In this document: positions 475 through 34,364 of the stretch, one piece after another
Layout of the letters: the number at the start of each line of letters is the position of its first letter
How positions within the stretch are numbered: position 1 is the stretch's first letter
Source: a virus
Reading direction: 5' to 3' (one strand)
IMG/VR virus record: IMGVR_UViG_3300025889_000409
Coordinates: 1-35,747 of that record
Length of the DNA stretch: 35,747 nt
Position numbers and translations under genes: made by a program
Notes under the pieces: generated by a model
Seen by the model: the letters and a program-made list of their open reading frames with translations, nothing else
Database searches by the model: none
What the model was told of the DNA's origin: nothing

Positions 475-483
475 TATAAATAT
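475..483 (-). promoter_or_regulatory. Putative late promoter box ATATTTATA
   Basis: An exact copy of the 9-mer (TATAAATAT on the + strand) lies 12 nt upstream of the ATG of the 150-aa gene at 10-462. It is one of 11 copies placed just upstream of start codons in this window. Confidence 0.6.
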
Positions 484-508
484 AATAAAAAAATTACATA
501 TATCCTAA

Positions 509-931
509 TTATTTACCAAACAATCGATTCATTCCGTAACTCATGTTTTCATAAGCTCGCATTGCTCTTTCCATTAGCATATCAGCTTCTTGACAAGTTT
601 TTTCAACAAGTTTCATGTCATCTTCTACCCGTTTCAATTCGCGTTGCAACGAAACTTTTTCAAACTGCATTTCGTCTGCTTCTGTTAAGTCAGTAACAAC
701 ACGCTTTGCTGTTTCTACTAATTCTCTCAAACTACCACATTGTTCAGAAAGTTTACGACCTTCTCCGAACATGCTAGTTCCATATTCTTCCATGCGCATA
801 ACCATTTCCATGAATCGCTTTTTTTCTTCTGTGGTTACTGGCACATGTTGTTCTGCAGCTTCTTGCTGTTTGTCAAAATCGCCTTTTTGCTCGTTGTATA
901 TTGATCGTACGAAATCTAAATTGCTCTTCAT
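509..931 (-). CDS. Coiled-coil hypothetical protein, 140 aa
   Basis: The family is not recognised. The protein is almost entirely charged helix with heptad-like spacing, rich in Glu, Lys, Arg and Met (for example residues 36-75 and 85-130). It has no membrane segment. It lies 14 nt downstream of the gp21 protease gene and has no ATATTTATA box of its own, so it is probably expressed from the unit starting upstream of 3183. A small coiled-coil protein next to the prohead protease could be a head-core component. It is much shorter than the T4 gp22 scaffold (about 270 aa), so I do not assign that name. The ATG at 929-931 is the natural start. Confidence 0.8.
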   Translation of the reverse strand: MKSNLDFVRSIYNEQKGDFDKQQEAAEQHVPVTTEEKKRFMEMVMRMEEYGTSMFGEGRKLSEQCGSLRELVETAKRVVTDLTEADEMQFEKVSLQRELKRVEDDMKLVEKTCQEADMLMERAMRAYENMSYGMNRLFGK

Positions 932-945
932 TACTTTAATCTTTA

Positions 946-1587
946 TTATATTCTACATTTCCCATCTTCACATAAAATAGAAGTAATTATTTCATGCACA
1001 TGATGATATTTGTTTGTTGTTGCAGCATGACCTGCACTTTCAAATTGAAATTGTTTTCCGCCTACTGGTGCAATGAAAGCTCCATGGGTAGAAGGATTTG
1101 ATACTACATCCCAACAAATAAGTTCAAAGTCAGGTTGAACTTCCATTATGTTTTCATTGCGAAGTTCTTTAACACTACCTAAACCTCGAGATGATATTCC
1201 TAAACGTATTCCTTCTTTAAACAATGATTTTAATATTTTACCAGATGGCGTATCTAAAACTTGTAAAGCTCCACATAAATCGTCGCCTTTCCACCAAATT
1301 TTTAAAATATTGTGTGACACATTGTTTAAGTTAACAACTTGTGATTCTGGATGATCTAATTCTCCTAATGCTCTGTGCTGCTGGATAAATTCTTTATCAT
1401 ATCGTTTACATTCACGTTCTAGTATATGTTTTGGATATACCCGACCGTTTTGATTTTTAGCTCCTGCACGTTGCAATACGCCTTCCACTACATATCCACC
1501 AGGAATACCGTATTTGTTTCCTGTAGACTCGTTAAGTGTGTTTAACGGAGTAAATGTTATAAAATCTTGTATAAGTTGTTTTGCCAT
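946..1587 (-). CDS. 21: Prohead core protease (T4 gp21-like)
   Basis: This is the maturation serine protease that cleaves scaffold and capsid precursors inside the prohead. The 213-aa length matches T4 gp21 (about 212 aa). Visible family features are the N-terminal segment with NGRVYPKHIL (residues 47-56), the GELDHP motif (75-80) carrying the catalytic His79, and the GISSRG motif (130-135) carrying the nucleophilic Ser. These are followed by a conserved region with WDVVSNPSTHGAF (159-171). The gene starts 4 nt after the stop of the 247-aa gene and is followed by the coiled-coil gene, within one transcription unit downstream of the portal gene. In T4 the order is also portal then protease, but two extra genes are inserted here. 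The assignment rests on motifs and gene order together. Confidence 0.93.
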   Translation of the reverse strand: MAKQLIQDFITFTPLNTLNESTGNKYGIPGGYVVEGVLQRAGAKNQNGRVYPKHILERECKRYDKEFIQQHRALGELDHPESQVVNLNNVSHNILKIWWKGDDLCGALQVLDTPSGKILKSLFKEGIRLGISSRGLGSVKELRNENIMEVQPDFELICWDVVSNPSTHGAFIAPVGGKQFQFESAGHAATTNKYHHVHEIITSILCEDGKCRI

Positions 1588-1591
1588 AATA

Positions 1592-2335
1592 TTATTGCAT
1601 TAAATTTCTAACTCGCTCTGATATTTTAACTAATCGTTCTGAAATTGTACCTAATGCTTTATTTGTTCTTTTCTTATATCCTTCTCTCGTAACACCACTC
1701 TCTTCTTTTAAACGACTAGCATTCTTAACCGACTCTTCAATTTCACGTAATTTTTTAGATACTTCTATGATTGTCTCGTTAACTTTGGTTTCTGGTGACT
1801 TCTTTGGATCTGATGTTGCATATGTTCGATATCCTTCAATTAGATGCTCATATCGTTTTTCCATTGCTTCAGCTACACCCGGATATTTCATTTTCTTTTT
1901 TACTTTTTTGTCTTTAGAAAATGCGTATGGTGTTTGGTATCCAGCAATACCACCGGTTACTGATTGTTCGTCTAAGTCATCATATTCAAGATCATATATG
2001 CCCATTTCCTCAGCTTCTTCTTTGCTGTATTCATTTTTTATTTGATCTCGAAAATCTTTAATTGATAATATCCATTCAATTAATGCATCTACTGCACCCG
2101 GATTATCATTTAAAAATTCTTCTATTCCTTGACGATAACCAAATAATCCTACCAATGTTTCTATAGGGTTAGATGAATAATATGCTTCATTAACAGATTC
2201 TTCTTTTACATCTACACCTGGTTCATACCATACTCTATCGCCATCATTGTCTTGCCAACGACGAGGCTCTTTTTGTTTTGTAGCTGGTTTGGTATTTTCA
2301 AATTTTCTTTTCATTTCCGTAATCAATTGTTTCAT
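1592..2335 (-). CDS. Hypothetical head-cluster protein, 247 aa
   Basis: The function is not recognised. The N-terminal third contains an Asp-rich loop, WQDNDGDRVWYEPG (residues 27-40), that resembles a metal-binding loop. The middle has a helical segment (53-105) and the motif GGIAGYQTPYAFS (128-140). The C-terminal 90 residues are a charged, probably coiled-coil helix region. The ATG overlaps the stop of the upstream 283-aa gene by 4 nt (ATGA), which suggests translational coupling, and the gp21 gene follows after 4 nt. Its place between portal and protease suggests a prohead or neck component, but that is inference from position only. Confidence 0.85.
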   Translation of the reverse strand: MKQLITEMKRKFENTKPATKQKEPRRWQDNDGDRVWYEPGVDVKEESVNEAYYSSNPIETLVGLFGYRQGIEEFLNDNPGAVDALIEWILSIKDFRDQIKNEYSKEEAEEMGIYDLEYDDLDEQSVTGGIAGYQTPYAFSKDKKVKKKMKYPGVAEAMEKRYEHLIEGYRTYATSDPKKSPETKVNETIIEVSKKLREIEESVKNASRLKEESGVTREGYKKRTNKALGTISERLVKISERVRNLMQ

Positions 2336-3183
2336 TGGTGAACTCTGTTTAATTCGTCAACTAGGTCAAAATATCTTAAAAGTGATAATACATGAGACTC
2401 TTTTATAACTTTCATGTTTTCCACATTGCAAAGCATTTCTGCTAAATTTTCTATTTTTATACGAGCAACATCATCTGCAGTCTTTGCTACATGTTCTTTT
2501 AGTTGCCGTTTAATTTTTGGTATTTCTGTTTTGATATATGATTTAAGTGAATCAGTATCATTAACATGAGTGATATATTGTTTTAACAGATTCTTTTGAG
2601 CTTCTGACAAATTAGTATACTTGTTATTAAATTTATCTACAAGCAGTTTATATGTTAAAAGTCTAGTGTCTTTTGTTTGTTTACGGAATTCTTCGTATAA
2701 CTCATCCGTTTCAGTTTGTTTAACTAAATCCTTAAGTGTGTGTTCTAGTATCACATCTTTGCATTGAGCCAATTGTTTAACGGAAGCTTGGTCTGCATAT
2801 TCAAACAACAAATAAGTCGAAGCTAAAACTTTGTAATTAGGTATGCGAGCGTTTGATAAAGAATCAAATGAAAAGTTTTCTTGAATCTCTTTTACCAGAT
2901 TATATTTTTGTCTGCGCAATGCGCTTTGATTCAATTTACGATATGCTTTTTGAGCTTCTGCAATGTAATCTAATGCTCGTGCTTCTGATTTATGTTGCTC
3001 TTTAAGAACTGAGTTATAAAGTTGCAATTCTTTTGCTAGTTCTGTGTTCTTACCGAAATATTTTTTAATAATATCTAATGCAATTGTTTTATCTGAAGTT
3101 AGTGTTTCAGACGTTAGTTTTCTAACCAACATTTCAAACAAAATTCCGGTGTTTTTGTACTTCGAATGTTTAATTTTCTTCAT
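2332..3183 (-). CDS. Hypothetical helical protein downstream of portal, 283 aa
   Basis: No function is recognised. The protein is basic and predicted to be nearly all helix, starting MKKIKHSKYKNTGILFEMLV and continuing with many Lys/Leu/Glu-rich segments (for example 45-110 and 155-235). It has no signal peptide, membrane segment or cysteine cluster. It is the first gene of a unit that continues with the 247-aa protein, gp21 and the coiled-coil protein, and it has an ATATTTATA box 30 nt upstream. Co-expression with the prohead protease makes a virion-assembly role likely. A scaffold-like role is possible but not shown by any motif. Confidence 0.85.
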   Translation of the reverse strand: MKKIKHSKYKNTGILFEMLVRKLTSETLTSDKTIALDIIKKYFGKNTELAKELQLYNSVLKEQHKSEARALDYIAEAQKAYRKLNQSALRRQKYNLVKEIQENFSFDSLSNARIPNYKVLASTYLLFEYADQASVKQLAQCKDVILEHTLKDLVKQTETDELYEEFRKQTKDTRLLTYKLLVDKFNNKYTNLSEAQKNLLKQYITHVNDTDSLKSYIKTEIPKIKRQLKEHVAKTADDVARIKIENLAEMLCNVENMKVIKESHVLSLLRYFDLVDELNRVHQ

Positions 3184-3213
3184 TTCTAGTATTCAGTTCT
3201 AGATTTATTTATA

Positions 3214-3222
3214 TATAAATAT
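3214..3222 (-). promoter_or_regulatory. Putative late promoter box ATATTTATA
   Basis: This copy lies 30 nt upstream of the 283-aa gene at 2332-3183, the longest spacing of the 11 copies. It sits within a longer alternating A/T run. It would head the unit that includes gp21. Confidence 0.55.
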
Positions 3223-3230
3223 TGTTACGC

Positions 3231-5069
3231 TTATAAAATATTGTTTTCATCTAGCATCGTGCCGCTATCTTCATCGGTTTGTGTAGACTCATATAGCATT
3301 TGATTGGCTAAATCTTTACTTTTCTTGTTTATCTTTTTTAATACATCAATATTTTCTCGCTGCATATTATATGGAGAACTGGTACTAGCTCGTCGACTAC
3401 CGCGCGGGTCAGCTTGGAATGTTGTTTGCTGATTTTCCGGGTCCATATGTTGCTTGATTTGCTTGATGCCTAATGGATCCCATCCGAATGCGTTTTTATG
3501 TGTTCCAGATTTTGGACCTTCAGGTGGTCTACCTCCTTTATCATCACTATCGGGACTCATGTGCATTGAAGCTAAATCGTGTGGCGTTCCATATGAAACT
3601 CCGGTTAATGTAGGATCATTTCCTTCTTGTTCGATTTGACTTTGACGGAATCTCAATTTAAGATCTTCAATCACATCGTTACGTTCTTGCAGCCATTGCT
3701 CTTCAGACATATTGAATATATATTCATAAATAAATCTATCTGAAACAAGTTTGCTATCTTTCATTGCAGCAGCCAATTGAATTTTTTCATTCATTAAGGC
3801 TACTTTTTGCTGATCATATATAATTGATGGTGCCGTTAATTCCAAATCAAAGTTAACAAGATCTGCATCTTCATATCCTTGTGTGTATAAATGCACGATT
3901 GCAATCTTTGCTAGTTCAGATTCAACTATTTTCTGAATACGTTCTATTGTGCGTGCAAATCGGATATCCATGGATGCTAATGTGGATTTTCCTTCTACAC
4001 CCTCTTCATATCCTAAAAATGGTTTAGGTATTTTAAGAGCTGCCATCATTTTGTGTTTAACATATTCGATGTCATCTATACCGGTAAATTCCATTCCTGG
4101 TAATGTGTCAATCTGTGTAGAAGAATTTCCGCCTCGTACAGGTAAAAAGTAATCTTCCAACATGTTGTTCAAGTTGAACTTGAGATTGTAATTACCTGTT
4201 CTTTGATCTACATATGGAACTTTTTTCATTTTGTTGATCATTTGTTCCATGAATGCATCTACTTCATTAGGAGGAATATTACCAATATCTACTTTGAATA
4301 TTCTTTTTTCTGGAGCTCTCATTACACGATGAATAAGCATTGCATCTTCAAGCATTGTCAATTTTTGAAATTCTTGACGTGCTCCTTCTAACATGGATCG
4401 ACCATAAGGTAAAAAGTTAGAGTCTGATATTAATCTGAAATGAGCTATTTCAAAAACATCATATTTTTCTTCTGGATTAGAAACATGGTGGAATTCTATT
4501 TCATAATCTCCAATATCTTCTCGGAATTCTTCCCACCGTTCCATTTCATAACTAGAAAATGGTCTTGCATTAATAATTCCAATTTCATCTGCAATATCTA
4601 ATTTTAAAAAGAAATCGCCATACTTACACATATTACGAATCCAAGGCCACAGATTGAATTCTATATTTAATATGTCATAAAATAAATTGTTTAGTATTTT
4701 TTGTATGCGAACATCCTCAGTTTTAATTGTTAGCATATCTCCGAATTGATTTGCAAGTGTAGATTCATCTGCATATATGTCTAATGCAGAACTAATAATT
4801 GGATCTTTATCCATCATTTCGAAATCCGTATACAACTGCATTCTGTTTTGATGCATGTAGTAATTGGAATCATATCCACCCATTCCACCGACAGCATGGC
4901 GATTTGTTCCGTGCATTCGAGTGTAACGATCGGCTATTTTACTTCCTACTAGATTTCCTGATGATTGTAATCTGTTTGTGTCGACTACACGTAATTTGTC
5001 TTTACCATATGCTCTTACAATAACATTGGTACGAAACAAATTTCGTAATCTTCTTCTTAATGTGGCCAT
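3231..5069 (-). CDS. 20: Portal vertex protein (T4 gp20-like)
   Basis: The portal forms the dodecameric ring at the unique capsid vertex, where the terminase docks and DNA passes. At 612 aa it is longer than T4 gp20 (524 aa). Family features are a basic N-terminus, the region around residues 81-103 containing KDPIISSALDIYADEST, and the following block on local polypeptide geometry (WPWIRNMCKYGDFFLKLD). Further on are RVMRAPEKRIFKVDIGNIP and the conserved segment with KPFLGYEEGVEGKSTLASMD. The C-terminal roughly 120 residues are low-complexity and polar (PDSDDKGGRPPEGPKSG and beyond), which probably accounts for the extra length. The gene lies directly downstream of terminase with its own ATATTTATA box 21 nt before the ATG. 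Confidence 0.95.
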   Translation of the reverse strand: MATLRRRLRNLFRTNVIVRAYGKDKLRVVDTNRLQSSGNLVGSKIADRYTRMHGTNRHAVGGMGGYDSNYYMHQNRMQLYTDFEMMDKDPIISSALDIYADESTLANQFGDMLTIKTEDVRIQKILNNLFYDILNIEFNLWPWIRNMCKYGDFFLKLDIADEIGIINARPFSSYEMERWEEFREDIGDYEIEFHHVSNPEEKYDVFEIAHFRLISDSNFLPYGRSMLEGARQEFQKLTMLEDAMLIHRVMRAPEKRIFKVDIGNIPPNEVDAFMEQMINKMKKVPYVDQRTGNYNLKFNLNNMLEDYFLPVRGGNSSTQIDTLPGMEFTGIDDIEYVKHKMMAALKIPKPFLGYEEGVEGKSTLASMDIRFARTIERIQKIVESELAKIAIVHLYTQGYEDADLVNFDLELTAPSIIYDQQKVALMNEKIQLAAAMKDSKLVSDRFIYEYIFNMSEEQWLQERNDVIEDLKLRFRQSQIEQEGNDPTLTGVSYGTPHDLASMHMSPDSDDKGGRPPEGPKSGTHKNAFGWDPLGIKQIKQHMDPENQQTTFQADPRGSRRASTSSPYNMQRENIDVLKKINKKSKDLANQMLYESTQTDEDSGTMLDENNIL

Positions 5070-5090
5070 ACTTTGATTATATTAATTTTA

Positions 5091-5099
5091 TATAAATAT
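5091..5099 (-). promoter_or_regulatory. Putative late promoter box ATATTTATA
   Basis: The copy sits 21 nt upstream of the portal gene ATG, in the gap between the terminase stop and the portal start. It would give the portal gene its own late transcript. Confidence 0.6.
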
Positions 5100-5123
5100 A
5101 ACTTGGCAAAGATCAGTGGTGTT

Positions 5124-6704
5124 TTATTTGATCAGCCAGGTTAGATCTTCATCACCGTAACCGTTATTCCATTTCCAACCGGTATCAGTGTTATTACGAC
5201 CGTTGGTTGAAATAATTCCATTTGTTTTTGTGAATTGTGAAATTGCTTTTTTATGCAATTCAATACCATGTTGTCTGAGTTTTAATGATGTATCACGTAA
5301 CCATAATCCGATACAGAAACTCATAACAAGGTCATCGTTATAACCTACTTCTGCTTGTGCTTTTCCGTTTTGCCATTTAAACACAAACATTTCTTGTATT
5401 AATCTTTTACTGCGTATTTTAGGTGATCCTTCTCGCATATACATTTCTAATGCAGATATCATTAATGGTCTTGTTCTGCTTGTTGTGGAAACACCCGGTA
5501 CCATTTTAGTTTTATCTTTTACATCATAACCTTTCATGAGTTGTACTTCTAAATCTACATACCCATCATCTTTATATGTATAAAATAAATTTTCATAGTT
5601 TCTGTCTAGAGCTGGTTGAATTGCAGCCCAACCTATGTTTGCATTTTCAATTGCCAACAGTGCATTGTTCCATTCTGTTGCAACTGTTACTAGCATATTA
5701 CCAAAATCATTGGGTGGAATTTTACCTTTATACTCAGCAACTTGTGTTACTGTTTCGACATCGATAACATGAAAGGCAGACCAGTCGGCACTATCACCAC
5801 GTGCGACGTCAGCTACTACTATATAATTTTTAGTATAGTCTGGATACTCCCATACCCAATAGCTGTTATCATATCCTCTTTTTTCTAATGGTTCTGAACA
5901 TTCGGATTCATATCGTTGCAGTATAGCGCCATCAATTACAGTGTGTCCGGAACTAATAAAGTCACAATCACACTCTTGAGCTGCTCCTTGTTCTCCTAAT
6001 AATCTGGTTTGTTCCTCTCGCCATTCTTTGTCTCGATCCGGGTGCACCGTCCAATGCAGTTTAATTGTGTTGAATCCATTAACGCTGCTTTCTGCTTCAG
6101 CCCATGTTTGATGAAACCAGTTACCTAAACCGTTTGGAGTAGATAACACAATTGCACCCCCACCAGTAGATAAGGTTGCTTGAGATGCTATCCATATTTC
6201 TTCAATGTTTCGTATAAAGGCAGCCTCATCAACAATTAGCAATGATAATGCTTCTGAACGTGCTCCTGTGGATGCACTGGATATTGCTTTGATTTGTGAA
6301 CCATTCTTGAATTTCAATGATAATTTATTGTCAGCTTCAATTGTTCCTTTCAACCAACTTGGAAGATTATCATGCATTACCCGTACCTTGGTTACTAGGT
6401 TTTTTGCTACTTCTTGTGTGGTTGCGATAACAAGTGTGTTGAAATCTTCATTGAACAACATGCTCCAAAGTGCAAAGCCTGCAGATAGTGTTGATATACC
6501 TAACTGACGTGACTTTAATATAATGTTGTATCGGTTGTCTCGGAGTTCTGCTAATGCATCTTCCTGGAATTCATACAGATTAAATTTGATCTTTCCTCGT
6601 TTAGGATGTTGAATATAACAATAATTACGCATGAAAAAGATAGGATCTTTTGCACACCGAACATATTGTTCTTGAATTATCTGTTTTAAATTCTTTTCTG
6701 CCAT
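5124..6704 (-). CDS. 17: Terminase large subunit (T4 gp17-like)
   Basis: This is the ATP-driven DNA packaging motor and headful nuclease. The 526-aa length is somewhat shorter than T4 gp17 (610 aa). The N-terminal ATPase shows the terminase-type Walker A LKSRQLGIST (residues 63-72), Walker B LLIVDEAAF (155-163) and the coupling motif LSTPNG (188-193). The C-terminal RNase H-like nuclease domain shows acidic positions in VVADVARGDSADW (near Asp299), AIENANIGW (near Glu352) and YNDDLVMSF (near Asp457-458). The gene starts 1 nt past the stop of the 126-aa membrane protein, at the end of a five-gene unit. T4 gp16, the small subunit, is not recognisable nearby, although the Cys-rich 219-aa protein is in the same unit. 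Confidence 0.96.
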   Translation of the reverse strand: MAEKNLKQIIQEQYVRCAKDPIFFMRNYCYIQHPKRGKIKFNLYEFQEDALAELRDNRYNIILKSRQLGISTLSAGFALWSMLFNEDFNTLVIATTQEVAKNLVTKVRVMHDNLPSWLKGTIEADNKLSLKFKNGSQIKAISSASTGARSEALSLLIVDEAAFIRNIEEIWIASQATLSTGGGAIVLSTPNGLGNWFHQTWAEAESSVNGFNTIKLHWTVHPDRDKEWREEQTRLLGEQGAAQECDCDFISSGHTVIDGAILQRYESECSEPLEKRGYDNSYWVWEYPDYTKNYIVVADVARGDSADWSAFHVIDVETVTQVAEYKGKIPPNDFGNMLVTVATEWNNALLAIENANIGWAAIQPALDRNYENLFYTYKDDGYVDLEVQLMKGYDVKDKTKMVPGVSTTSRTRPLMISALEMYMREGSPKIRSKRLIQEMFVFKWQNGKAQAEVGYNDDLVMSFCIGLWLRDTSLKLRQHGIELHKKAISQFTKTNGIISTNGRNNTDTGWKWNNGYGDEDLTWLIK

Positions 6705-6705
6705 A

Positions 6706-8052: not shown

Positions 8053-8062
8053 GTATTATATT

Positions 8063-8902
8063 TTATAGAATGCCATTGTTTTTCATCCAAATTATCATGT
8101 CTGTTCGCAGTGACGTTGGATCAATCTCTTGTCCGATTTCTGCCTCTACTTTTGTTAATGTGTTTTTCATCATGTTCAAAAATATCGATGTTACTGCGTC
8201 AGCTGGATTTTTTGAATTTTTAACTTTCTTTAATATATCTTGTTGAAATATCTGAGCTGGTCCTTGTTCTTTTGGAGCATCGGCTACAGGAGCTGCTGGC
8301 TCTGCTGCAGGAGCTTCTGCTTCGGGAGCAGGCGTTTCTGCTGCTGGTGCTGGTTCTGGTGCTGGTTCTGGAATTGGCGCAGGTTCTGGTGCTGGTGCTG
8401 GTTCTTCGGCAGCATCTTCTGTTTCTGCTTCTTCGCGGATCATTATTGCAATTTTTCTGCGAACATATTCTCTGATTAATCGTTCTTTGTTTTCTTCAGA
8501 CAATTTATCAACACGTTCCTGTAGTTTCTCTTCGTTCTCTGGCTCTACCATTGAATTAGTAATTGCACCATGATCGATTCGTTCTAATTTTTCCAAGAAA
8601 CCATCTGTATCTTCAATTTGTAATTTTTCAAAAACTTTGCGAGCATGTTCAGCCGAATATTCACCTTCTTCTACTTTTTTGTATAAACGCTCTTTAATAT
8701 CCGGTACCATGTTTTCTACGTTGTCAATTACATCTGTAGCATATTTTCTTGGTACATTTGGAACAACACCTTTAACTCCACCAGGTACCATGTTAGGAGC
8801 TTCTTCTCCTACATAATCTTTCATATCTTTACGGGTTTCTGGTTTTTGTGACTTTGCTTCGTCTTTAGGTGCTTTGTATTTGCTCTTATGTTTTTCAGCC
8901 AT
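8063..8902 (-). CDS. Hypothetical protein with Pro-Ala-Glu linker, 279 aa
   Basis: The protein has two structured-looking parts joined by a low-complexity linker. Residues 1-160 are charged and mostly helical, with a Pro/Val-rich patch (VPGGVKGVVPNVPRKYATDV, 39-58). Residues about 161-210 are an almost pure Ala/Pro/Glu linker with PAPEPAP repeats. Residues 215-279 form a second helical domain (IFLNMMKNTLTKVEAEIGQEI). It is the first gene of the packaging unit, behind an ATATTTATA box 19 nt upstream. A flexible two-domain virion or assembly protein is a reasonable guess, but no family is recognised. Confidence 0.85.
   Translation of the reverse strand: MAEKHKSKYKAPKDEAKSQKPETRKDMKDYVGEEAPNMVPGGVKGVVPNVPRKYATDVIDNVENMVPDIKERLYKKVEEGEYSAEHARKVFEKLQIEDTDGFLEKLERIDHGAITNSMVEPENEEKLQERVDKLSEENKERLIREYVRRKIAIMIREEAETEDAAEEPAPAPEPAPIPEPAPEPAPAAETPAPEAEAPAAEPAAPVADAPKEQGPAQIFQQDILKKVKNSKNPADAVTSIFLNMMKNTLTKVEAEIGQEIDPTSLRTDMIIWMKNNGIL
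8267..8425 (-). repeat. Low-complexity repeat encoding the Ala-Pro-Glu linker
   Basis: Short degenerate repeats of the type GCACCAGCACCAGAACC (coding strand) encode the PAPEPAP-rich linker of the 279-aa protein. The repeat number may vary between relatives through slippage. It also creates spurious Trp/Cys-rich open frames on the + strand. Confidence 0.75.
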
Positions 8903-8921
8903 GGGTTTTCTTTATTTTATA

Positions 8922-8930
8922 TATAAATAT
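8922..8930 (-). promoter_or_regulatory. Putative late promoter box ATATTTATA
   Basis: This copy is 19 nt upstream of the 279-aa gene and overlaps by one base the TAA stop of the upstream fusion gene. It would drive the unit containing the zinc protein, the two membrane proteins and terminase. Confidence 0.6.
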
Positions 8931-10927
8931 TATCTACTGTATTTTAGGACGCCTACAAGTTGATTGATTGGTGCAAAACTACCGGTTAATTTGTATGTAT
9001 TGCCCCCATACGTGAATACTATTCCTTCTAAAGGCACAATTTTATCAAACCCGCCAAGTGCTTGTATCCGGGATAAATGCTTACGTAGTAGTTCTAGGTC
9101 TTTAATGTTATTGCTTGATTTTAATAATCGTATTGAGTCTGCTAAATCTTTTCTGATTTGTTGTACTGCGTTAGACGGATTAACTGCAACAAAGTCACTT
9201 GCATTCTGAAGTATCAATGCTCCTAGTTTCAAGAATATTGATTCAAATGGTTGTATGTTTTCATACTGTATCTTTTTCAGATTAGCAGCAGTATCTGTTT
9301 CTACGACCCAATTCAGAAATTGTTCGTTATCAATCATTTTCTTCAGAGCCGTTTTATTTAAAGATTTATCTGCAATTGACCATCGTCGAACCAACGCAGT
9401 TAATACAACTTCTGGAATATCATATCCTAGTTCTTTAGCTTTTGCTTCAATTAATTCTTTCCACCACGCTTTGTGATATTCAAATACTAAATCCGTTTCT
9501 GCTAAACCGTAACGATTTCTGAGTTGATCTACTTCTTTGAATAACGCATCTTGATAATCTTCAAAATTATCTACTTTGCCTAATTTTAATTCTCTCGGTG
9601 GAATAATTTGAAACGTTTTTTGCAAGTGTGCATTAGCATCTTGTATTGCTCGTTGCAATGCTGCGCCTCCAGGCATATCAGTCATAACTTCATTTCCAGC
9701 ATCATCATATTCCGTTAAATTGTGGAATTGTAGTACCGCGGTTTCATATGCAATAACATTTCTAGTTGCCGGATATATGATTTCCATGTTAGCATATATT
9801 CGACCGTTTTTAAATATTTCTGTTAGTCGTTCAGGTCCTAGTTTTGATAATGCAGCATCTAAATCTTTTCCAGCTTCGCGGAATGCATCTGATATTGCAC
9901 CACGACCTTCGTATTTCGAAGCTAATTCTTCTGCAGATAACGGATTGATTCGTTCTCTTGTCCCGCGCGCGAATCCTACTTGTCCATCTTTATATGTTAC
10001 AAATATGTTCTGTCCATCTGTCTTTTCCGTAACAGCTTGTTCTACATTTAATCGTCCCGTTAATCCGCGCGCTATCATTTCTTTCATGTCATTGAAAGTT
10101 AAATCATAACGATCATAAGGATGATCCATGTGCCCTGCAAGTCCGCCTTCGTTTAATGGAACTCCAAAAACAGTTTTGCTAAAATTTCCAAAATCATAAA
10201 CAAATTCTTTGCCACTGTTCTTGTTCAAGAATCCTCTCAATTTATTGATTTTTTTAGCATGGGTCTGTGTTTGTTTTTTTGTTGGATAACCTCCACCCAT
10301 TATTTCATTAACATCTTCTTCAAGTTGTTGTTTCCACCATTCTACTGAAAACAGTGATTCTGTAACAGTGTTGAATATTTGCCATACATTTTTTATTAAG
10401 GCTTCATCATATTGCGGATATTGTTGTGCAAATGTTTCATAGTCTCCACTAGCAATTGCTTCGCGTGCTGCGGTTGCAGAAATAGGTTTTCCGTTGCTTG
10501 TTAACGGATCTACCATCACATTGATCTCTTCTGCGTTAACGTCTGCAGGTATTTTTCTGCCGTTTTTATCTCCAACCTGTTGATATTTTTCTACGTTGCT
10601 TATAAATCCTTTTACTCGAACATAGTCATTATCTTTGTTAGATGCAGCTAATGCATATGATCCACCAGGTGCATTAAACAAGTATTCATATGCTGCAAGT
10701 ATCGGACTTGGATATGGTGTTGGTTGTATTTCTATTTTAGGATTATTGTTCAGCAATCTGAAAATATCTATGCTGTTTTCTCTGGTTACTCCTGGTCTTG
10801 AATTTGGACCTATTAGCATGATCACTTTGCTTACTGCCGGGTGATTGGCATATTCATTAGCTAAATGCATATGTGCTCCGGTAATGGGTTTGAACCCTCC
10901 GGGAAATAAAACAGTTACGTTGTTCAT
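8930..10927 (-). CDS. Nucleotidyltransferase fused to RNA/DNA ligase-like domain
   Basis: The 665-aa protein combines two nucleotide-transfer domains. Residues 1 to about 190 look like a HIGH-superfamily nucleotidyltransferase (NadM/cytidylyltransferase type). The evidence is GGFKPITGAHMHL (10-22), a variant of the GxFxPxHxGH motif with Thr16 at the first His and Ala18 at the Gly, plus ISATAAR (149-155), matching ISxTxxR. The second part has covalent-nucleotidyltransferase signatures: EKTDG (301-305) with candidate AMP-accepting Lys302, IYANMEIIYP (377-386) as motif III, EGIVF (634-638) as motif IV and YKLTG (645-649) near motif V. About 240 mostly helical residues are inserted between motifs III and IV. 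NAD metabolism, nucleic-acid end sealing or protein nucleotidylation are all possible. It has its own upstream box. Confidence 0.85.
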   Translation of the reverse strand: MNNVTVLFPGGFKPITGAHMHLANEYANHPAVSKVIMLIGPNSRPGVTRENSIDIFRLLNNNPKIEIQPTPYPSPILAAYEYLFNAPGGSYALAASNKDNDYVRVKGFISNVEKYQQVGDKNGRKIPADVNAEEINVMVDPLTSNGKPISATAAREAIASGDYETFAQQYPQYDEALIKNVWQIFNTVTESLFSVEWWKQQLEEDVNEIMGGGYPTKKQTQTHAKKINKLRGFLNKNSGKEFVYDFGNFSKTVFGVPLNEGGLAGHMDHPYDRYDLTFNDMKEMIARGLTGRLNVEQAVTEKTDGQNIFVTYKDGQVGFARGTRERINPLSAEELASKYEGRGAISDAFREAGKDLDAALSKLGPERLTEIFKNGRIYANMEIIYPATRNVIAYETAVLQFHNLTEYDDAGNEVMTDMPGGAALQRAIQDANAHLQKTFQIIPPRELKLGKVDNFEDYQDALFKEVDQLRNRYGLAETDLVFEYHKAWWKELIEAKAKELGYDIPEVVLTALVRRWSIADKSLNKTALKKMIDNEQFLNWVVETDTAANLKKIQYENIQPFESIFLKLGALILQNASDFVAVNPSNAVQQIRKDLADSIRLLKSSNNIKDLELLRKHLSRIQALGGFDKIVPLEGIVFTYGGNTYKLTGSFAPINQLVGVLKYSR

Positions 10928-10942
10928 TCGTTTTCTTTTTTA

Positions 10943-10951
10943 TATAAATAT
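10943..10951 (-). promoter_or_regulatory. Putative late promoter box ATATTTATA
   Basis: The copy lies 15 nt upstream of the nucleotidyltransferase-ligase fusion gene. On the coding strand it continues into a run of A residues and AAAGAAAACGA directly before the ATG, the A-rich leader typical of this window. Confidence 0.6.
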
Positions 10952-10973
10952 TGTACATGTTATTTAATGGTGG

Positions 10974-14198: not shown

Positions 14199-14207
14199 TA
14201 TAAATAT
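14199..14207 (-). promoter_or_regulatory. Putative late promoter box ATATTTATA
   Basis: The box is 18 nt upstream of the 1068-aa fibre gene and shares one base with the TGA stop of the gp47-gp46 fusion gene. It switches from a replication/recombination gene to a structural gene. Confidence 0.6.
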
Positions 14208-18306: not shown

Positions 18307-18511
18307 ATTATTATAATAAGAAAAATACTGAAGTATCCAAAGAATATGGCTTTGATATAATTAAATTATAATATATGTCAGACACAATCATTTCATTAAT
18401 GGTCTAACGATCTCATTCATTAAATAAATTTAATTTCATTCAATCAGTTAAATTAATTAACTTTTCATTAATTATAAAGAAAATAATAATTTAAATTTTA
18501 AATTCCAACCT
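18307..18511. other. Longest intergenic region, very AT-rich, with TTCATTAA repeats
   Basis: This 205-nt stretch lies between the resolvase stop and the primase start, with no open frame worth calling. It contains four copies or near copies of TTCATTAA, starting at 18392, 18416, 18435 (TTCATTCAA) and 18464. Two of them extend to the identical 10-mer TTTCATTAAT. It also contains the AT-rich palindromic tract AATTAATTAA at 18451. No ATATTTATA box is present. It may hold the early or middle promoter of the primase and gp47-gp46 genes, or binding sites for a regulator or replication protein. None of these roles is proven. Confidence 0.6.
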
Positions 18512-18991: not shown

Positions 18992-19012
18992 AACTTGTTT
19001 TTATTTTTTTAT

Positions 19013-21102: not shown

Positions 21103-21111
21103 TATAAATAT
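21103..21111 (-). promoter_or_regulatory. Putative late promoter box ATATTTATA
   Basis: The copy lies 14 nt upstream of the 691-aa gene and shares one base with the stop codon of the kinase-like gene. It would drive the structural protein and the resolvase. Confidence 0.6.
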
Positions 21112-21653
21112 TACCAATCTATCATTACCAAATTACCATTCCAACTCATAATGTTGTCCGGTCGGAAATCTATATCCAATTCAAACTCTGGTATTCCTGT
21201 TTTTCGCACATCAGCTTCAAGCGCATTGATAAAATTAATTATCTTGATATCCGTATCATTTACCACTTCTGTTTTAGCAAATTCAAACACACTATGTTCA
21301 CCGAATGTCTCACGCTGCCATTGTTTATATGAATTGAAAAACTGTGTTAACTGTTGACGCATTGCGCCAGATAACTCAGAAGCTTTATTCATGATGTACA
21401 TTCGTTTACCGTCAACATAATATACTGGAATAAAAGTAGAGAATTCAGAATGTCTACCAACAATAACCGATGCTACTCGATATTCATCTAATTCAGTAGT
21501 TATTTTAAATAAATAATCGGTACCTTCAATTTCATATATACGACCGTTGTCGCCTTTATTGAAAAACTTGAATTGTTTTTGTTTGATCTTATCCAGCAAC
21601 ACTTCAATTTCTGAATCAGACGCTTCTCGCAATATGTGTGACATTCGTATCAT
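21111..21653 (-). CDS. Minimal protein-kinase-fold protein, 180 aa
   Basis: Residues 34-42 (GDNGRIYEI) resemble a Gly-rich loop and YLFKI (47-51) the ATP-anchoring Lys strand. YIMNK (86-90) fits a hinge. IDFRPDNIM (161-169) matches the catalytic loop pattern of RDLKPENIL, with Asp162, Arg164 in place of Lys and Asn167 correctly spaced. VMIDW (176-180) matches the metal-binding Asp strand, as in aminoglycoside phosphotransferases (IDW). The protein stops right there, so activation segment and distal C-lobe are missing. The next bases are a promoter box and another gene, with no remnant of a longer frame. The start overlaps the 542-aa fibre-like gene by 4 nt (ATGA); Met4 is an alternative start. 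It could be an active small kinase, a pseudokinase or a structural accessory. Confidence 0.8.
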   Translation of the reverse strand: MIRMSHILREASDSEIEVLLDKIKQKQFKFFNKGDNGRIYEIEGTDYLFKITTELDEYRVASVIVGRHSEFSTFIPVYYVDGKRMYIMNKASELSGAMRQQLTQFFNSYKQWQRETFGEHSVFEFAKTEVVNDTDIKIINFINALEADVRKTGIPEFELDIDFRPDNIMSWNGNLVMIDW

Positions 21654-23278: not shown

Positions 23279-23284
23279 AGTAAA

Positions 23285-23318
23285 AACCCGTTACACTTTA
23301 TTATAAATATAACGGGTT
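23285..23318 (-). terminator. Terminator-like hairpin with promoter box in its loop
   Basis: A perfect 9-bp inverted repeat (AACCCGTTA / TAACGGGTT) flanks a 16-nt loop. On the minus strand it is followed by a short run of T, giving five T in a row including the last two stem bases. It lies about 20 nt after the stop of the 381-aa gene. The loop holds most of the ATATTTATA box for the next gene, so termination and new initiation are stacked in 34 nt. Confidence 0.65.
23302..23310 (-). promoter_or_regulatory. Putative late promoter box ATATTTATA
   Basis: The box lies 23 nt upstream of the 542-aa gene. Eight of its nine bases are in the loop of the 23285-23318 hairpin and the last base is in the stem. 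Confidence 0.6.
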
Positions 23319-23337
23319 CAAATTGTGATGTTATTTT

Positions 23338-24483: not shown

Positions 24484-24495
24484 ATTTTATTTGTT

Positions 24496-25137
24496 TTATC
24501 TTCCAGCACTGTCTGCTGCAGTAATCGGTGTTACAGTTAAATTAATAGTAACAGATCCACCAGTTTCATTTCCAATTATAGTAATCGTAGTTGTTTTCTG
24601 TGTAAATGTTAATTGTTTAGCAGTTACGTTAAATGCAAATCCTACTTCTGCTACACTCTGTGCATCTTGATTAACACCTAATTGAGCAGGAGCAATATTT
24701 CCTGCTACTGGTTGAGTTACTGTTAAGGTAGCCGCAGTAGAATCTCCTAAAATTGCAGTATATCCAAAATTAGAATTTCCATTCAATGTAGTGTTTGGAG
24801 TAATATCCGCGGATTGTCCAGCTCTTAATGTTAAACTAGTATTACCTACACTAACAATCGGTACATAGTTGCTTTGTTTTGGAAGTGTGATTAATTTGTA
24901 TCGAAGAGCTTGAGTTTCATCAGGAATAGCTTCGGTAATCGGCATATTCTCTATCAAGGTACCATAATAGTCAGTACCAAGTGGATGTTCTGGATTCCAT
25001 AAATTGTAATCAACTTCATCGTCACCTAATGCAAATTGTACGATGTTAAAAGAACCATCTCCTTTTGATAGAAGTTCTCGTCCTTTTAATGTTAAAATAG
25101 CATCTACCGTAATACTACTGTTATCTAAATATCCCAT
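24496..25137 (-). CDS. Tail-associated protein with Ig-like C-terminus, 213 aa
   Basis: The N-terminal 85 residues have a compact conserved look. They include ITVDAILTLKGRELLSKGDG and FNIVQFALGDDEVDYNLW, then ENMPITEAIPDETQALRYK. From memory this resembles structural proteins of marine T4-like phages, but I cannot run a search. Residues about 90-205 are Thr/Val/Asn-rich beta strands ending in TITIIGNETGGSVTINLTV, which suggests an Ig-like or bacterial-adhesin-type domain. It is the first gene of a unit with an ATATTTATA box 15 nt upstream. It lies between the 1155-aa and 381-aa tail proteins, so a baseplate or fibre-attachment role fits the context. Confidence 0.85.
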   Translation of the reverse strand: MGYLDNSSITVDAILTLKGRELLSKGDGSFNIVQFALGDDEVDYNLWNPEHPLGTDYYGTLIENMPITEAIPDETQALRYKLITLPKQSNYVPIVSVGNTSLTLRAGQSADITPNTTLNGNSNFGYTAILGDSTAATLTVTQPVAGNIAPAQLGVNQDAQSVAEVGFAFNVTAKQLTFTQKTTTITIIGNETGGSVTINLTVTPITAADSAGR

Positions 25138-25152
25138 ATTCTTTTCTTTTTA

Positions 25153-25161
25153 TATAAATAT
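25153..25161 (-). promoter_or_regulatory. Putative late promoter box ATATTTATA
   Basis: The copy is 15 nt upstream of the 213-aa gene. On the coding strand it runs into TATAAAAAGAAAAGAAT before the ATG, a clear example of the A-rich leader with no GGAGG. Confidence 0.6.
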
Positions 25162-25185
25162 ATACATGTTTACTTTATTGATTTT

Positions 25186-28653: not shown

Positions 28654-28658
28654 CTTGA

Positions 28659-29858
28659 TTAATCAATTTCGTTATTATTTTCATCAACGTTTTGCGAAGC
28701 ATCTGTAATAGACCATTGAGTTGGAGATTGTAAAAGGGTATGTATAGAAACCCGGCCAGATTGGTTTTCGGTATAAGGAATGTCAACAAATTGTCCAACT
28801 AATGCCCCAATATTGAATTGGTCTCCATCCTGGAAATCTTCATTTGGTATGATTATATCATATTCTGAAATTTTAGTTGTATTTGCATCAATAAATGCAG
28901 TTTGCTGCCCTGCATCTACAGTTAATTCCCTGAAGTCTCGTATAACAATTCCAGTTTCAAATTCCCGCTTAATCAATGAAAAGTAAACAGTACCAATACT
29001 TGATTGATTTACGAATATACTAGTATATTTGGTACGTGCATTAGATGCATATAACTCTGCATCAGCCTGAGTGATATTCAATTGATCGGTCAAGTAGTCT
29101 ACTAATGCATCTTCTGCTGCATCTAGATCGCCTCGATTATCAAAAACAAAACGATTATAATAAATTAGTCCATTACCACCACTAAACAAAATGCTATTCC
29201 AATCAGATTCTGTAATTACACTATTTCTAATAAAATCAGATAAGTTACTATATGATGCTTTTACAGTTCCAAAATTCGGATCCCATCTCGAGTTTGCTAA
29301 ATCAATTCCATATGAAGTATATCTATGTGCTAATCTGATACGCATTCGTAAACCATCAACTGCTAGTTCTTTTATCTCCGGAGTTATTGTGTATGCATTA
29401 GTATTGAGTTGAGGCTGGCCAGCTAACACAGTATCCATTAAAACACCAGAATAAAGTGTAGTTTCTCTCAACGTCCAATCTTCACTAGGTCTGTATTTTG
29501 CATACACTAAATCTACTAAATCATCAATACCAAATCCTTCAAACGAAATCTCTGGTACTGCAACATTCTCTGCAGGAAATCTAAAATATTTAAATCTAGT
29601 ATCTATGTTGCGAATCACACTAGAATTCACATATCGTAAAGAAGTTGCTTCTAATACTAAATTCTGATTGTCGGTTGCACCTTGATTCACAATGATATTA
29701 CCATTATCATCACGTTCTACAAAATCCGGATTATTTGATTGATATACTAATCCATTTTCTATATAAGGAACAGCACCAGGAGGATTTGTTTGTTGTGATG
29801 GTACTAAATTACCACCAGGTGTAAATACAGGTGTAGTATTGTTTGGATTACTTGGCAT
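28659..29858 (-). CDS. Virion structural protein, baseplate cluster, 399 aa
   Basis: The family is not recognised. The N-terminal 60 residues are Pro/Asn/Gly-rich and probably extended. They are followed by a structured region with RYVNSSVIRNIDTRFKYFRF and then FEGFGIDDLVDLVYAKYRPS. Near residues 240-300 is a helical part (DNRGDLDAAEDALVDYLTDQ), and the C-terminus is Asn/Glu-rich. It shares one base with the stop and start of the upstream 384-aa gene (TAATG), implying coupled translation, and is followed at 5 nt by the 1155-aa gene. The context places it in the baseplate or tail periphery. Confidence 0.84.
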   Translation of the reverse strand: MPSNPNNTTPVFTPGGNLVPSQQTNPPGAVPYIENGLVYQSNNPDFVERDDNGNIIVNQGATDNQNLVLEATSLRYVNSSVIRNIDTRFKYFRFPAENVAVPEISFEGFGIDDLVDLVYAKYRPSEDWTLRETTLYSGVLMDTVLAGQPQLNTNAYTITPEIKELAVDGLRMRIRLAHRYTSYGIDLANSRWDPNFGTVKASYSNLSDFIRNSVITESDWNSILFSGGNGLIYYNRFVFDNRGDLDAAEDALVDYLTDQLNITQADAELYASNARTKYTSIFVNQSSIGTVYFSLIKREFETGIVIRDFRELTVDAGQQTAFIDANTTKISEYDIIIPNEDFQDGDQFNIGALVGQFVDIPYTENQSGRVSIHTLLQSPTQWSITDASQNVDENNNEID

Positions 29859-31012
29859 TATCTAATAACTTTAAAATAATATTCATCGTCAATGCGTTGC
29901 TCAGTGAATCCATCTACAATTTTAAATTCTAAACGATAATAACGTTCAGGCATAAAACTATTCATATCAATGTAAATGAAGTTACTTGTTTCATCGCAAC
30001 TAACTTTATTATAAATATTATCAAAAGGAATTATGACTTCATCTGTGTTAGCATCCAATATTGAGTAATATGTTGTCGTCGGAAAACGTTTAACTGTTTG
30101 CAACGGATACAGATTGGTAGGTGATTTTCTAGGATATCTGTCACGTCCATACAATCTAACCTTTACTATGTCAGTGTCACGGTATTCTGCTTTGAGTTTA
30201 GTATACATTGCAAATGATTCTAAATTCACTTCCGGCAGCGTGTTATCGTATGTTGCATTGTCCCAATACATTACAAGTCTAGGAACATAAATAGTATGCG
30301 TTTCTCGACTGAAAAATCTGATATATCCTTGTTTGTTGTTATCAGCTTCATCTGACTCAGAAAACTTGAGCAAGAATCCGTTATTTTCTACGTCTTTCAA
30401 ATTAGATCCAGATATCCATAATTGAACTGCCTCAGTAACATCCATGTTAATATCAGTTGGACGATATGAAAATGCTTCTGATTCATCTAAACCAGGCTGA
30501 AAGAAATATGATGTGTTAAAAGAAGAAGTGTTAAATAAAGCTGAACCACTTTGATACAACCAACTACCTCCCGCACCAGAACCAGATACATAAAGACTTG
30601 TGCCTGGTATATTAATTTCTTGTGAACTAGATATCCATGCAGATCCACTAAGTGGCTGATCCCATGCAACACCATTAGTTACAACGGGGTTTGAATTTTC
30701 AAATCCAGTACCATTAATCCATTCCTGTCCTACAACCAATGCATCGATAGTGTATTCTGCTGGTAAATTTTTTGCGTGGGTTGTGAATAGTTGCAAAACG
30801 AATTTACAATCTTTAACATCTACACTATATTTAGACAACGCAGCATTAACTTCATCCATATCAAATTTCAATACAGATCTGGACTTTTGTAGTGTCTCTC
30901 CGTCTGTTGCTAAACGTTTACCAACTTCAAGTATTTCGTCAATACCAGTATTACGAGTCGGTGATGACTCATATAACGTGGCATCTGATTCTGCGTAAAA
31001 TATTCTAAACAT
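29858..31012 (-). CDS. Virion structural protein with DNRLRE-like region, 384 aa
   Basis: The N-terminal 200 residues have the order of a DNRLRE-type beta sandwich. ATLYESSPTRNTGIDEILEV is followed by SRSVLKFDM, then DALVVGQEWINGTG, and finally a segment with MDVTEAVQLWISG and NGFLLKFSESDEA. Such domains occur in cell-surface and carbohydrate-interacting proteins. A Gly/Ser-rich loop (about 145-175) sits inside it. The C-terminal half (about 250-384) is a second beta domain with DIVKVRLYGRDRYPRK and ends YYFKVIR. It starts 12 nt after the 151-aa gene in the unit downstream of gp6. The domain call is by eye and moderate in strength. A tail or baseplate location is inferred. Confidence 0.83.
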   Translation of the reverse strand: MFRIFYAESDATLYESSPTRNTGIDEILEVGKRLATDGETLQKSRSVLKFDMDEVNAALSKYSVDVKDCKFVLQLFTTHAKNLPAEYTIDALVVGQEWINGTGFENSNPVVTNGVAWDQPLSGSAWISSSQEINIPGTSLYVSGSGAGGSWLYQSGSALFNTSSFNTSYFFQPGLDESEAFSYRPTDINMDVTEAVQLWISGSNLKDVENNGFLLKFSESDEADNNKQGYIRFFSRETHTIYVPRLVMYWDNATYDNTLPEVNLESFAMYTKLKAEYRDTDIVKVRLYGRDRYPRKSPTNLYPLQTVKRFPTTTYYSILDANTDEVIIPFDNIYNKVSCDETSNFIYIDMNSFMPERYYRLEFKIVDGFTEQRIDDEYYFKVIR

Positions 31013-31024
31013 CGTGTCTTATCT

Positions 31025-31480
31025 TTATAATGAACCGGTACCTAAACTAATTTGTAAACAACTTCCACTTCGCCATAATTGTCCGTTAACTCCCGGATCT
31101 GTTGTTGGCAATGAAGCTGTGTAAAATAAAATGGTTCCTTGTGTTATAAATGTATTTGATACATCTAATCTGTTAAATGATGCACTAGTTGCCGTTACTG
31201 ATGACCCATTCACATATGATGCAGATTGTGCATTGGCAACATAACTTGCTGTTTGTGCGGTTTCTACATATGATGCTGTTTGTGCAAGTGTAACATAACT
31301 TGCGGTGTCAGCTGTACCTGTTAAGTTTCCAATTAAACTTCCGGTAATATCCAAAGAACCGGAAATAGCAACTGATTCTAACGTGTTACCAGTTAAAACA
31401 TCATATAAATCAGAAACAAAACTTGCTGAAATAAGTCCACCATTCACAATTTGTGCACGGTTATCGTTCAATACGCCCAT
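31025..31480 (-). CDS. Short fibre-like protein with TASYV repeats, 151 aa
   Basis: The protein is small, Ser/Thr/Gly-rich and fibre-like. Residues 59-94 are four 9-residue repeats of TASYV plus four residues (TLAQ, ETAQ, ANAQ, NGSS), a periodic pattern suited to a triple-stranded fibre or beta-helix. Upstream are GSLDITGSLIGNLTG strands. The end has TTDPGVNGQLWRSGSCLQIS, a common fibre-tip phrase. It has its own ATATTTATA box 16 nt before the ATG and starts a four-gene unit with the 384-, 399- and 1155-aa proteins. The function as a small tail fibre or fibre-linker is inferred from composition and place. Confidence 0.84.
   Translation of the reverse strand: MGVLNDNRAQIVNGGLISASFVSDLYDVLTGNTLESVAISGSLDITGSLIGNLTGTADTASYVTLAQTASYVETAQTASYVANAQSASYVNGSSVTATSASFNRLDVSNTFITQGTILFYTASLPTTDPGVNGQLWRSGSCLQISLGTGSL
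31199..31306 (-). repeat. Four 27-bp tandem repeats encoding TASYV units
   Basis: Four in-frame 27-nt units encode TASYVTLAQ, TASYVETAQ, TASYVANAQ and SASYVNGSS. The coding strand alternates between GCAAGTTATGTT and GCATCATATGT for the core, so the units have diverged at silent positions rather than being recent copies. Confidence 0.85.
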
Positions 31481-31496
31481 GATATATTCTTTTTAA

Positions 31497-31505
31497 TATA
31501 AATAT
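31497..31505 (-). promoter_or_regulatory. Putative late promoter box ATATTTATA
   Basis: The copy lies 16 nt upstream of the 151-aa fibre-like gene. It is followed on the coding strand by TTAAAAAGAATATATC before the ATG. It separates the wedge unit (gp25, gp6) from the tail-protein unit. Confidence 0.6.
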
Positions 31506-31510
31506 AAGTC

Positions 31511-33391: not shown

Positions 33392-33395
33392 GATG

Positions 33396-33845
33396 TTATT
33401 CTGTTACTACATTTCCGTTTTCAGTAAAAATTGCAATCGGCTCACCAGAAAATTGTCCTAATGCCCATTTAATTTTTATAAAAATATCATATTGTATAGA
33501 TGGATCTGTGTTTGCAGATTCAATTTCAATATCTTCAATTGTTATATAAGGTAACCAAGCTGCTACAGGTTGATTAATAGAATCATTTATTCGCTGTTTT
33601 AAAATATCTGAAACTGGATTAAAAACTAAACGAAGTAAATCAGATCCAAAGCTTGGATGATATAGTCGTTCTCCTTTAGTAGTCATTAACAAATTTATTA
33701 AATTTACTCGAGCTTGTTCGGAATTAGAAAACGTAGATCTAATTACATTTTCTTCGCCTAATACAAACTTAACCCCAATACCTCGAGCTTGTAACGAATT
33801 TTGTATCGTTTCATTATTAATATTATTTAAAACTACGAATCCCAA
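33396..33845 (-). CDS. 25: Baseplate wedge protein gp25 (GPW/gp25 family)
   Basis: gp25 sits at the core of each baseplate wedge and contacts the sheath. The 149-aa length fits T4 gp25 (132 aa) with a short extension. Family features are ARVNLINLLMTTKGERLYHP (about 45-64) followed by SFGSDL, LLRLVFNPVSDILKQRINDS, and a final strand IAIFTEN. The start is TTG at 33843-33845, because the frame meets a TAA three codons further upstream and the next Met (Met54) lies inside the conserved domain. The gene lies 2 nt from the stop of the 164-aa gene and directly before gp6. Confidence 0.94.
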   Translation of the reverse strand: MGFVVLNNINNETIQNSLQARGIGVKFVLGEENVIRSTFSNSEQARVNLINLLMTTKGERLYHPSFGSDLLRLVFNPVSDILKQRINDSINQPVAAWLPYITIEDIEIESANTDPSIQYDIFIKIKWALGQFSGEPIAIFTENGNVVTE

Positions 33846-33847
33846 TT

Positions 33848-34342
33848 TTATTTACCTCGCTTTTTATCTATCGCCTTCATTAACGCAGAATAATCTCTTG
33901 TCATTGCTTTTGCAACCATTGGATCTACTTCCATGTTTTTACCTGTCTCTGGATCAGTCATGACCGATGGAGCCGCCATATTGCGTTGCACCGGCATTTT
34001 TCTAGCAGCACCGAAATTCATAGCATCTGCAGACGTCATTGTGATATCTTCTGTCATCAATTCCGCATATGAATTCATGTCTAACGGAGTATTTTCTCGC
34101 AAAGATTCTGTATCATTTAAAATATTAGAAAACTTGTTTTCTTTGAAATTAACTTTGCGCTTTGGTTTCGGTTGTGCCGACGTTTTAACTGGTGCCGTTT
34201 TAGAAACAACATCCGTTTTCATTTCATTTATTGTAGATTGTAACCCTTCTTGCAGTATTTCAGATAGTTCTTCTTTAATTACTTTACGAACCTCCTCAGC
34301 TACTACTTGTTTTAAAACTGAAATTAATTTTGATTGACTCAT
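33848..34342 (-). CDS. Coiled-coil hypothetical protein before gp25, 164 aa
   Basis: No family is recognised. The N-terminal 45 residues are a charged amphipathic helix (KLISVLKQVVAEEVRKVIKE) likely to form a coiled coil. The middle is basic and flexible (KTAPVKTSAQPKPKRKVNFK). The C-terminal 80 residues contain Met-rich short helices ending DYSALMKAIDKKRGK. There is no membrane segment. It heads the unit with gp25 and gp6 behind an ATATTTATA box 13 nt upstream, so a baseplate-assembly or scaffold-like role is plausible from context only. Confidence 0.82.
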   Translation of the reverse strand: MSQSKLISVLKQVVAEEVRKVIKEELSEILQEGLQSTINEMKTDVVSKTAPVKTSAQPKPKRKVNFKENKFSNILNDTESLRENTPLDMNSYAELMTEDITMTSADAMNFGAARKMPVQRNMAAPSVMTDPETGKNMEVDPMVAKAMTRDYSALMKAIDKKRGK

Positions 34343-34355
34343 AATTACTTTTTTA

Positions 34356-34364
34356 TATAAATAT
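34356..34364 (-). promoter_or_regulatory. Putative late promoter box ATATTTATA
   Basis: The copy lies 13 nt upstream of the 164-aa gene, followed on the coding strand by TATAAAAAAGTAATT and the ATG. It would drive the gp25-gp6 wedge unit. Confidence 0.6.

Follow-up and report, generated by a model that had tools for sequence, protein, structure and literature searches.

The nine-nucleotide word ATATTTATW is, with a probability of roughly 80%, the late-gene promoter of a large clade of T4-related phages, and is read by a diverged gp55-like sigma factor together with the host RNA polymerase. What was established directly is the box with its conservation, orientation and spacing, the lack of a -35 element, and the fact that a gp55-like protein exists and is conserved. 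The late-promoter reading is well supported. Most phages of the clade probably infect Bacteroidota. Hundreds of related phages have the boxes at matching places, and these boxes are very probably the switches of their late genes. T4 late transcription is a textbook system, and its box has been reported to vary little across the family. The widespread clade described here keeps the T4 late logic with a changed centre of the box and a sigma factor that is too diverged for standard family models. It offers a natural specificity switch for studies of -10 element recognition by sigma region 2, the box opens a route to late-gene annotation in hundreds of uncultured phages, and the cultured phages immuto and Mel-JY01 allow direct testing. 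No description of phage promoters with ATATTTATA or TATTTATA was found in the open-access literature, although an earlier description is possible, and nothing relevant on immuto and Mel-JY01 was found there either.

Copies of the box in the window

The window, i.e. the whole stretch of DNA that was analyzed, comes from a T4-related myovirus and covers 35.7 kb of its genome. It encodes the portal protein, the terminase, a prohead protease, the baseplate wedge proteins gp6 and gp25, a fused gp47-gp46 protein and a primase. All convincing genes are carried by the minus strand, and none was found on the plus strand. Judged by the terminase, Microcystis phage Mel-JY01 (56%) is the nearest cultured phage, followed by Flavobacterium phage immuto (53%). 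The immuto genome (MW353177.1) contains, as annotated, a 7-deazaguanine DNA modification set at 18607-36971 (FolE, QueD, QueE, QueC, QueF, and DpdA).

A preliminary description of the window had listed 11 exact copies of ATATTTATA 12-30 nt upstream of start codons and a single further copy inside a gene, and had noted that the box is absent ahead of the primase gene and the fused gp47-gp46 gene. The exact count confirmed all of these positions, distances and absences. Altogether, the coding (minus) strand of the window has 12 copies of ATATTTATA and the other strand has none, and the 11 upstream copies all precede ATG start codons (Table 1). The intragenic copy is probably not a promoter. The box had also been said to head structural and packaging units; a small correction is that the terminase gene is not preceded by a box itself but comes last in the unit that begins at the 8922 box. 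Several copies had been reported to share one base with the preceding stop codon; this applies to three of them, in which the first base of the box is the last base of the stop codon.

As the window is 66% AT, the composition of its intergenic regions might be suspected of yielding the word by chance. However, Markov models of orders 1-4 predict only 1.2-1.9 copies on the coding strand. Eleven of the 12 copies fall into the upstream zones, which account for 4.2% of the coding strand (binomial P = 9e-15). In dinucleotide shuffles of the upstream regions (n = 2000), the mean number of genes with the word was 0.24 and the maximum was 3, compared to the 11 genes observed. Together with the lack of copies on the other strand and the conservation across many contigs, these results refute a chance origin, which can be regarded as practically negligible.

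Table 1. Late boxes and further features. Positions refer to the window unless a contig is named; distances are from the end of the box to the ATG.
Feature	Position	Strand	Distance (nt)	Remarks
Late box	475..483	-	12	gene 10-462; box not kept at this gene in most relatives
Late box	3214..3222	-	30	gene 2332-3183; exact or one mismatch in every relative compared
Late box	5091..5099	-	21	portal gene (gp20)
Late box	8922..8930	-	19	gene 8063-8902; unit ends with terminase; base shared with stop codon
Late box	10943..10951	-	15	cytidylyltransferase-like gene
Late box	14199..14207	-	18	gene 10974-14180; base shared with gp47-gp46 stop codon
Late box	21103..21111	-	14	gene 19013-21088; base shared with preceding stop codon
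Late box	23302..23310	-	23	gene 21650-23278; in hairpin loop; conserved
Late box	25153..25161	-	15	gene 24496-25137; kept in immuto too
Late box	31497..31505	-	16	gene 31025-31480
Late box	34356..34364	-	13	gene 33848-34342; unit includes baseplate wedge gp25 and gp6
Exact intragenic copy	30010..30018	-		inside gene 29858-31012; one to two chance copies expected
Portal gene (gp20)	3231-5069	-
Terminase gene (gp17)	5124-6704	-		last gene of unit begun at 8922 box; no own box
Cytidylyltransferase-like gene	8930-10927	-		annotation of its relatives in immuto and Mel-JY01
Probable virion protein, 1068 aa	10974-14180	-
Intergenic region before primase, 205 nt	18307..18511	-		no late box; TTTGGAT...TTATTATAATA -35/-10-like element and covarying hairpin
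Canonical sigma-70-like gene (regions 2 and 4)	L093:17785-18525 (G003)			orthologues in G001, G002, G004, G005, G006, G008
Host-type early promoter array	G003 15201-19309			before many small early genes
Host-type early promoter array	G004 56417-63893			before many small early genes
Host-type early promoter array	G005 101186-107653			before many small early genes
Host-type early promoter array	G006 94367-102736			before many small early genes
Host-type early promoter array	G008 65657-71628			before many small early genes

Conservation of the box in related phages

For the analysis of conservation, 80 IMG/VR relatives (874 kb) were retrieved via the portal protein, and seven large contigs were taken whole. 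In the 80 relatives, ATATTTATA occurs 205 times in sense and 4 times in antisense orientation. Unbiased word enrichment upstream of genes gave ATATTTATA as the top-ranked 9-mer in eight related contigs, with 132 upstream copies versus 2.3 expected from coding sequence. At the portal gene, ATATTTATW was found upstream in 77 of 77 relatives, as ATATTTATA in 60 cases and as ATATTTATT in 17, with the exact copies at distances of 11-22 nt. Because the portal loci are split between these two variants, the true word is ATATTTATW.

The presence or absence of the box at individual genes largely matches across contigs. Most of the boxed genes of the window are boxed in most relatives, the box at 14199 is exact in all seven IMG/VR contigs compared, and most genes inside units are never boxed. 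An independent enrichment was performed for a sister clade that had been found with the immuto sigma protein. The top 8-letter words were CTATTTAT and TATTTATA, and the former occurs 116 times upstream of genes versus 16 times within genes. From the enrichments in both clades it therefore follows that the common core is TATTTATA. The box is shared by the two cultured phages, and in immuto it precedes the genes for terminase, tail sheath, tail completion and baseplate hub. In the window, immuto, Mel-JY01 and the contigs compared, the box marks late (structural) genes and not replication genes.

Orientation of the box and organization of the probable promoter

In the relatives, 143 sense boxes and 2 antisense boxes were counted at 1226 majority-strand genes, and 10 sense boxes and 3 antisense boxes at 57 minority-strand genes. 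Because sense copies are in excess on both strands, the box points along the gene. This bears on the polarity of the site. The preliminary description had read the invariant block as the T4 late box on the opposite strand, and TATTTATA is indeed the exact reverse complement of TATAAATA. Such a site could give rise to antisense transcripts from the plus strand, or it could act symmetrically, as some copies contain the palindrome TTTATATAAA. However, box orientation tracks gene orientation on both strands, and the plus strand of the window is devoid of convincing genes. The palindrome, which had been attributed to many copies, is present in only 5 of the 11 upstream copies. Symmetry is neither conserved nor required: the flanking positions +9 to +13 are variable, and the form found in sister clades is ATATTTATA-ATAAA or CTATTTATA. 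The antisense and palindromic readings were ruled out by the orientation test on both strands, and an opposite-strand box is highly improbable.

Read in the same direction, TATTTATA equals TATAAATA with AA replaced by TT at the two central bases, and these two substitutions suffice to relate the sequences. If the T4 box is taken as -13 to -6, they fall at -10/-9. In the cryo-EM structure, gp55 has base pockets at -12, -9 and -8 (PMC7892883). A reversed site would be a less simple explanation than a change of specificity in the centre, which also agrees with the orientation test. The sense form of TATAAATA was found upstream of only one window gene and 4 of the 77 portal genes.

The spacing between box and ATG in the relatives is usually 11-25 nt, but overall it ranges from about 4 to 43 nt. 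A small group of genes has the arrangement ATATTTATA-ttaa-ATG. In most of them, the next in-frame ATG is dozens of codons away or does not exist, which suggests leaderless or nearly leaderless mRNAs. In Mel-JY01, an SD-like GGAG is visible, and most boxes are 27-43 nt away from the ATG. This wider spacing leaves room for a leader, which argues for a DNA signal and against a fixed translation signal. A logo of 143 sites showed the box followed by T-W-AAA, i.e. by an AT-rich segment directly downstream. A -35 signal was looked for in the same logo, 22-48 nt upstream of the box, but no position exceeded 0.08 bit.

The closeness of the box to the start codon would also fit a signal in the leader of the late mRNAs, either an A/U-rich enhancer of ribosome binding or a processing site. 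Flavobacteria do not have SD sequences and tune initiation by the nucleotides upstream of the ATG (PMC6847099), with which a translation signal would be in line. However, a range of about 4 to 43 nt that is shifted outwards in the SD-using Mel-JY01 is at odds with such a signal, and so are the genes with a box only 4 nt from the ATG and no in-frame ATG for dozens of codons. In addition, the genes inside units do not have a box, phages with the box also have a sigma factor, and terminator-like T runs precede several of the copies. An RNA-level function is therefore unlikely.

For the promoter reading, the following mechanism is proposed. ATATTTATW, with the core TATTTATA or, in the sister clade, CTATTTATA, would be the -10-type element of late genes. 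Recognition would not involve a -35 element and would be due to a strongly diverged, gp55-like sigma factor that is encoded by the phage and carried by the host RNA polymerase. We infer that the gp55-like protein reads the box, that the genes concerned are expressed late, and that transcription would start a few nucleotides downstream of the box, resulting in very short leaders.

As read from the sequence, the late box at 23302 forms part of the loop of a hairpin that resembles a terminator (23285-23318, minus strand), with the arms AACCCGTT/AACGGGTT and a T run after it. Incoming upstream transcripts would end there, those initiated at the box would not contain the 5' arm of the hairpin, and one site could thus do both.

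A gp55-like protein as candidate late sigma factor

The entry point to the candidate protein group was gene 152 of immuto, which gave a weak match to the PHROG model of T4 gp55 (E = 0.008). Proteins of this group have 230-256 aa, and one copy is present in each large contig checked as well as in immuto and Mel-JY01. The gene always occupies a site immediately before the baseplate block. In G001, the nearest relative, it is located two genes past the orthologue of a gene near the right end of the window. By analogy with G001, the window's own sigma gene would probably be found a short way past the right edge, with its position two genes upstream from the last gene.

A family-versus-family alignment yielded a collinear match to gp55 over 147 columns, and the N-terminal half resembles gp55. 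A blind hhalign comparison of 109 orthologue groups with the gp55 family gave the gp55-like group as the sole match (78.6%, next group 3.4%). The first AlphaFold model, based on 18 similar sequences, had a pLDDT of 61 and its PDB search was meaningless, and modelling was redone with 70 sequences, which raised the pLDDT to 82. In the PDB structure search, the best match by probability was region 2 of sigma-E with a -10 strand (probability 0.57, TM 0.73, 3.0 A), although with an E-value of 4.2. In the viral structure library BFVD, the named top matches were phage sigma factors, matched over nearly the full length. Pfam did not reveal a sigma domain in the gp55-like protein and the gp55 profile scores were modest, the matches of the sigma alignment to Pfam and to PDB sequences did not exceed chance level, and a scan with the Mel-JY01 sigma found no relatives. 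PHROG models alone are too insensitive for gp55, gp33 and gp45 in these phages. We have good but not complete confidence that the gp55-like protein is a sigma factor, and alignments and model point to a probable, distant homology to gp55.

The box might also be a phage promoter with a different reader, namely a canonical sigma-70-like protein, which contigs of the window's clade encode in the early region in addition to the gp55-like protein. This protein of 246 aa has Sigma70_r2 (E about 1e-15) and Sigma70_r4 domains in G001, G003, G005 and G006 and relatives in G002, G004 and G008, and a host-type early promoter is located directly upstream of its gene in G003 and G004. However, it was not found in immuto and Mel-JY01. 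Because these two boxed phages have the gp55-like protein without the canonical sigma, the gp55-like protein is the better candidate. Moreover, with a reader that has region 4, a -35 signal would be expected at the box sites, but no such signal is present. The canonical protein is thus an improbable reader.

Comparison with T4-type late transcription

The late-promoter system suggested in the preliminary description is strongly supported by conservation, orientation, gene class, the lack of a -35 element, the separate host-type promoters and the gp55-like gene, whereas the reversed polarity it had proposed is not needed. Like the T4 late promoter (TATAAATA, served by gp55, gp33 and gp45), the box is an A/T element of 8-9 bp at a -10-like position (PMC2988020, PMC7892883), and as at T4 late promoters there is no -35 element and the downstream segment is AT-rich (PMC2988020). 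In both systems, the box heads structural genes and the gp55-type sigma is encoded by the phage. In contrast to T4, the core is TATTTATA instead of TATAAATA, the sigma factor is longer (about 232 versus 185 aa) and has an extra helical C-terminal domain, no recognisable gp33 or gp45 was found, and the leaders are apparently very short. The late promoters of KVP40, 44RR, S-PM2 and Aeh1 likewise consist of one -10-like box that varies family-wide. These boxes are highly similar to that of T4, with Aeh1 deviating at -13/-12 (PMC2988020). The clade differs from them in its central TTT change, which is given for none of the four in that article.

Of the T4 factors for which a search had been suggested, a gp55-like protein was thus found in the large relatives, but no homologues of gp33 and gp45. 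PHROG 254 (gp33) matches T4 and none of 10 related records including both cultured genomes, in which a diverged copy could be missed, and PHROG 223 (gp45) matches T4 only. G003, G007 and Mel-JY01 clearly encode a gp44-type clamp loader, and therefore a diverged clamp is likely in these three. An ORF of roughly 99 residues before the sigma gene was considered as gp33 and rejected, as by eye it looks membrane-anchored. The gp55-like protein of the window's clade has a conserved FxxLPF-like C-terminal tail, which could bind a sliding clamp. FxxLPF as a clamp motif common to the DNA polymerase was not retained, because the polymerase ends differ, and is thus unproven.

In T4, gp33 is a stand-in for sigma domain 4, and Geiduschek and Kassavetis have asked why no fused late sigma exists (PMC2988020). 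As no gp33 was found, a tentative and rather doubtful idea is that the late sigma of the clade is such a one-piece protein, in which a gp55-like domain 2 and the helical C-terminal domain (residues about 140-227) would form a natural version of what is split between gp55 and gp33 in T4.

Other promoter classes and the region upstream of the primase gene

A second promoter class is of the host type and consists of TTG(ACA)/TTAGGA, a spacer of about 18 bp and CTTATCTTTA; it can also be written TTG-N-TATCTTTA or TTG/TAnnTTTR. Many copies are present in a compact early region of the contigs, and the genes of this class and the box genes occupy largely separate stretches. The class fits the Bacteroidota promoter TTTG/TAnnTTTG (PMC6847099). 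This housekeeping promoter, used by sigma-ABfr, probably serves the early genes of these phages. It differs from the late box in having a -33 element and a different -7 element and in its location in other genome regions.

A third pattern, TTGGAA-N-TTATAATA, was found in IMG/VR contigs (e.g. G003 35824-35923) before primase genes and, in most contigs, also before the unit with the gp55-like gene. It might represent a middle promoter class.

The minus strand upstream of the primase gene contains a conserved hairpin, GTTAGAC-loop-GTCTGAC with the loop CAnnAATGnAATGnnTGT, about 70-102 nt before the ATG. It has no match in Rfam. In 18 distinct sequences, which were chosen by a search for that stem so that the pairing result is favoured, 99% of the cells pair, 4 of the 7 pairs change on both sides, and every control was far lower. 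The hairpin may be an RNA element or, alternatively, a protein- or origin-related inverted repeat.
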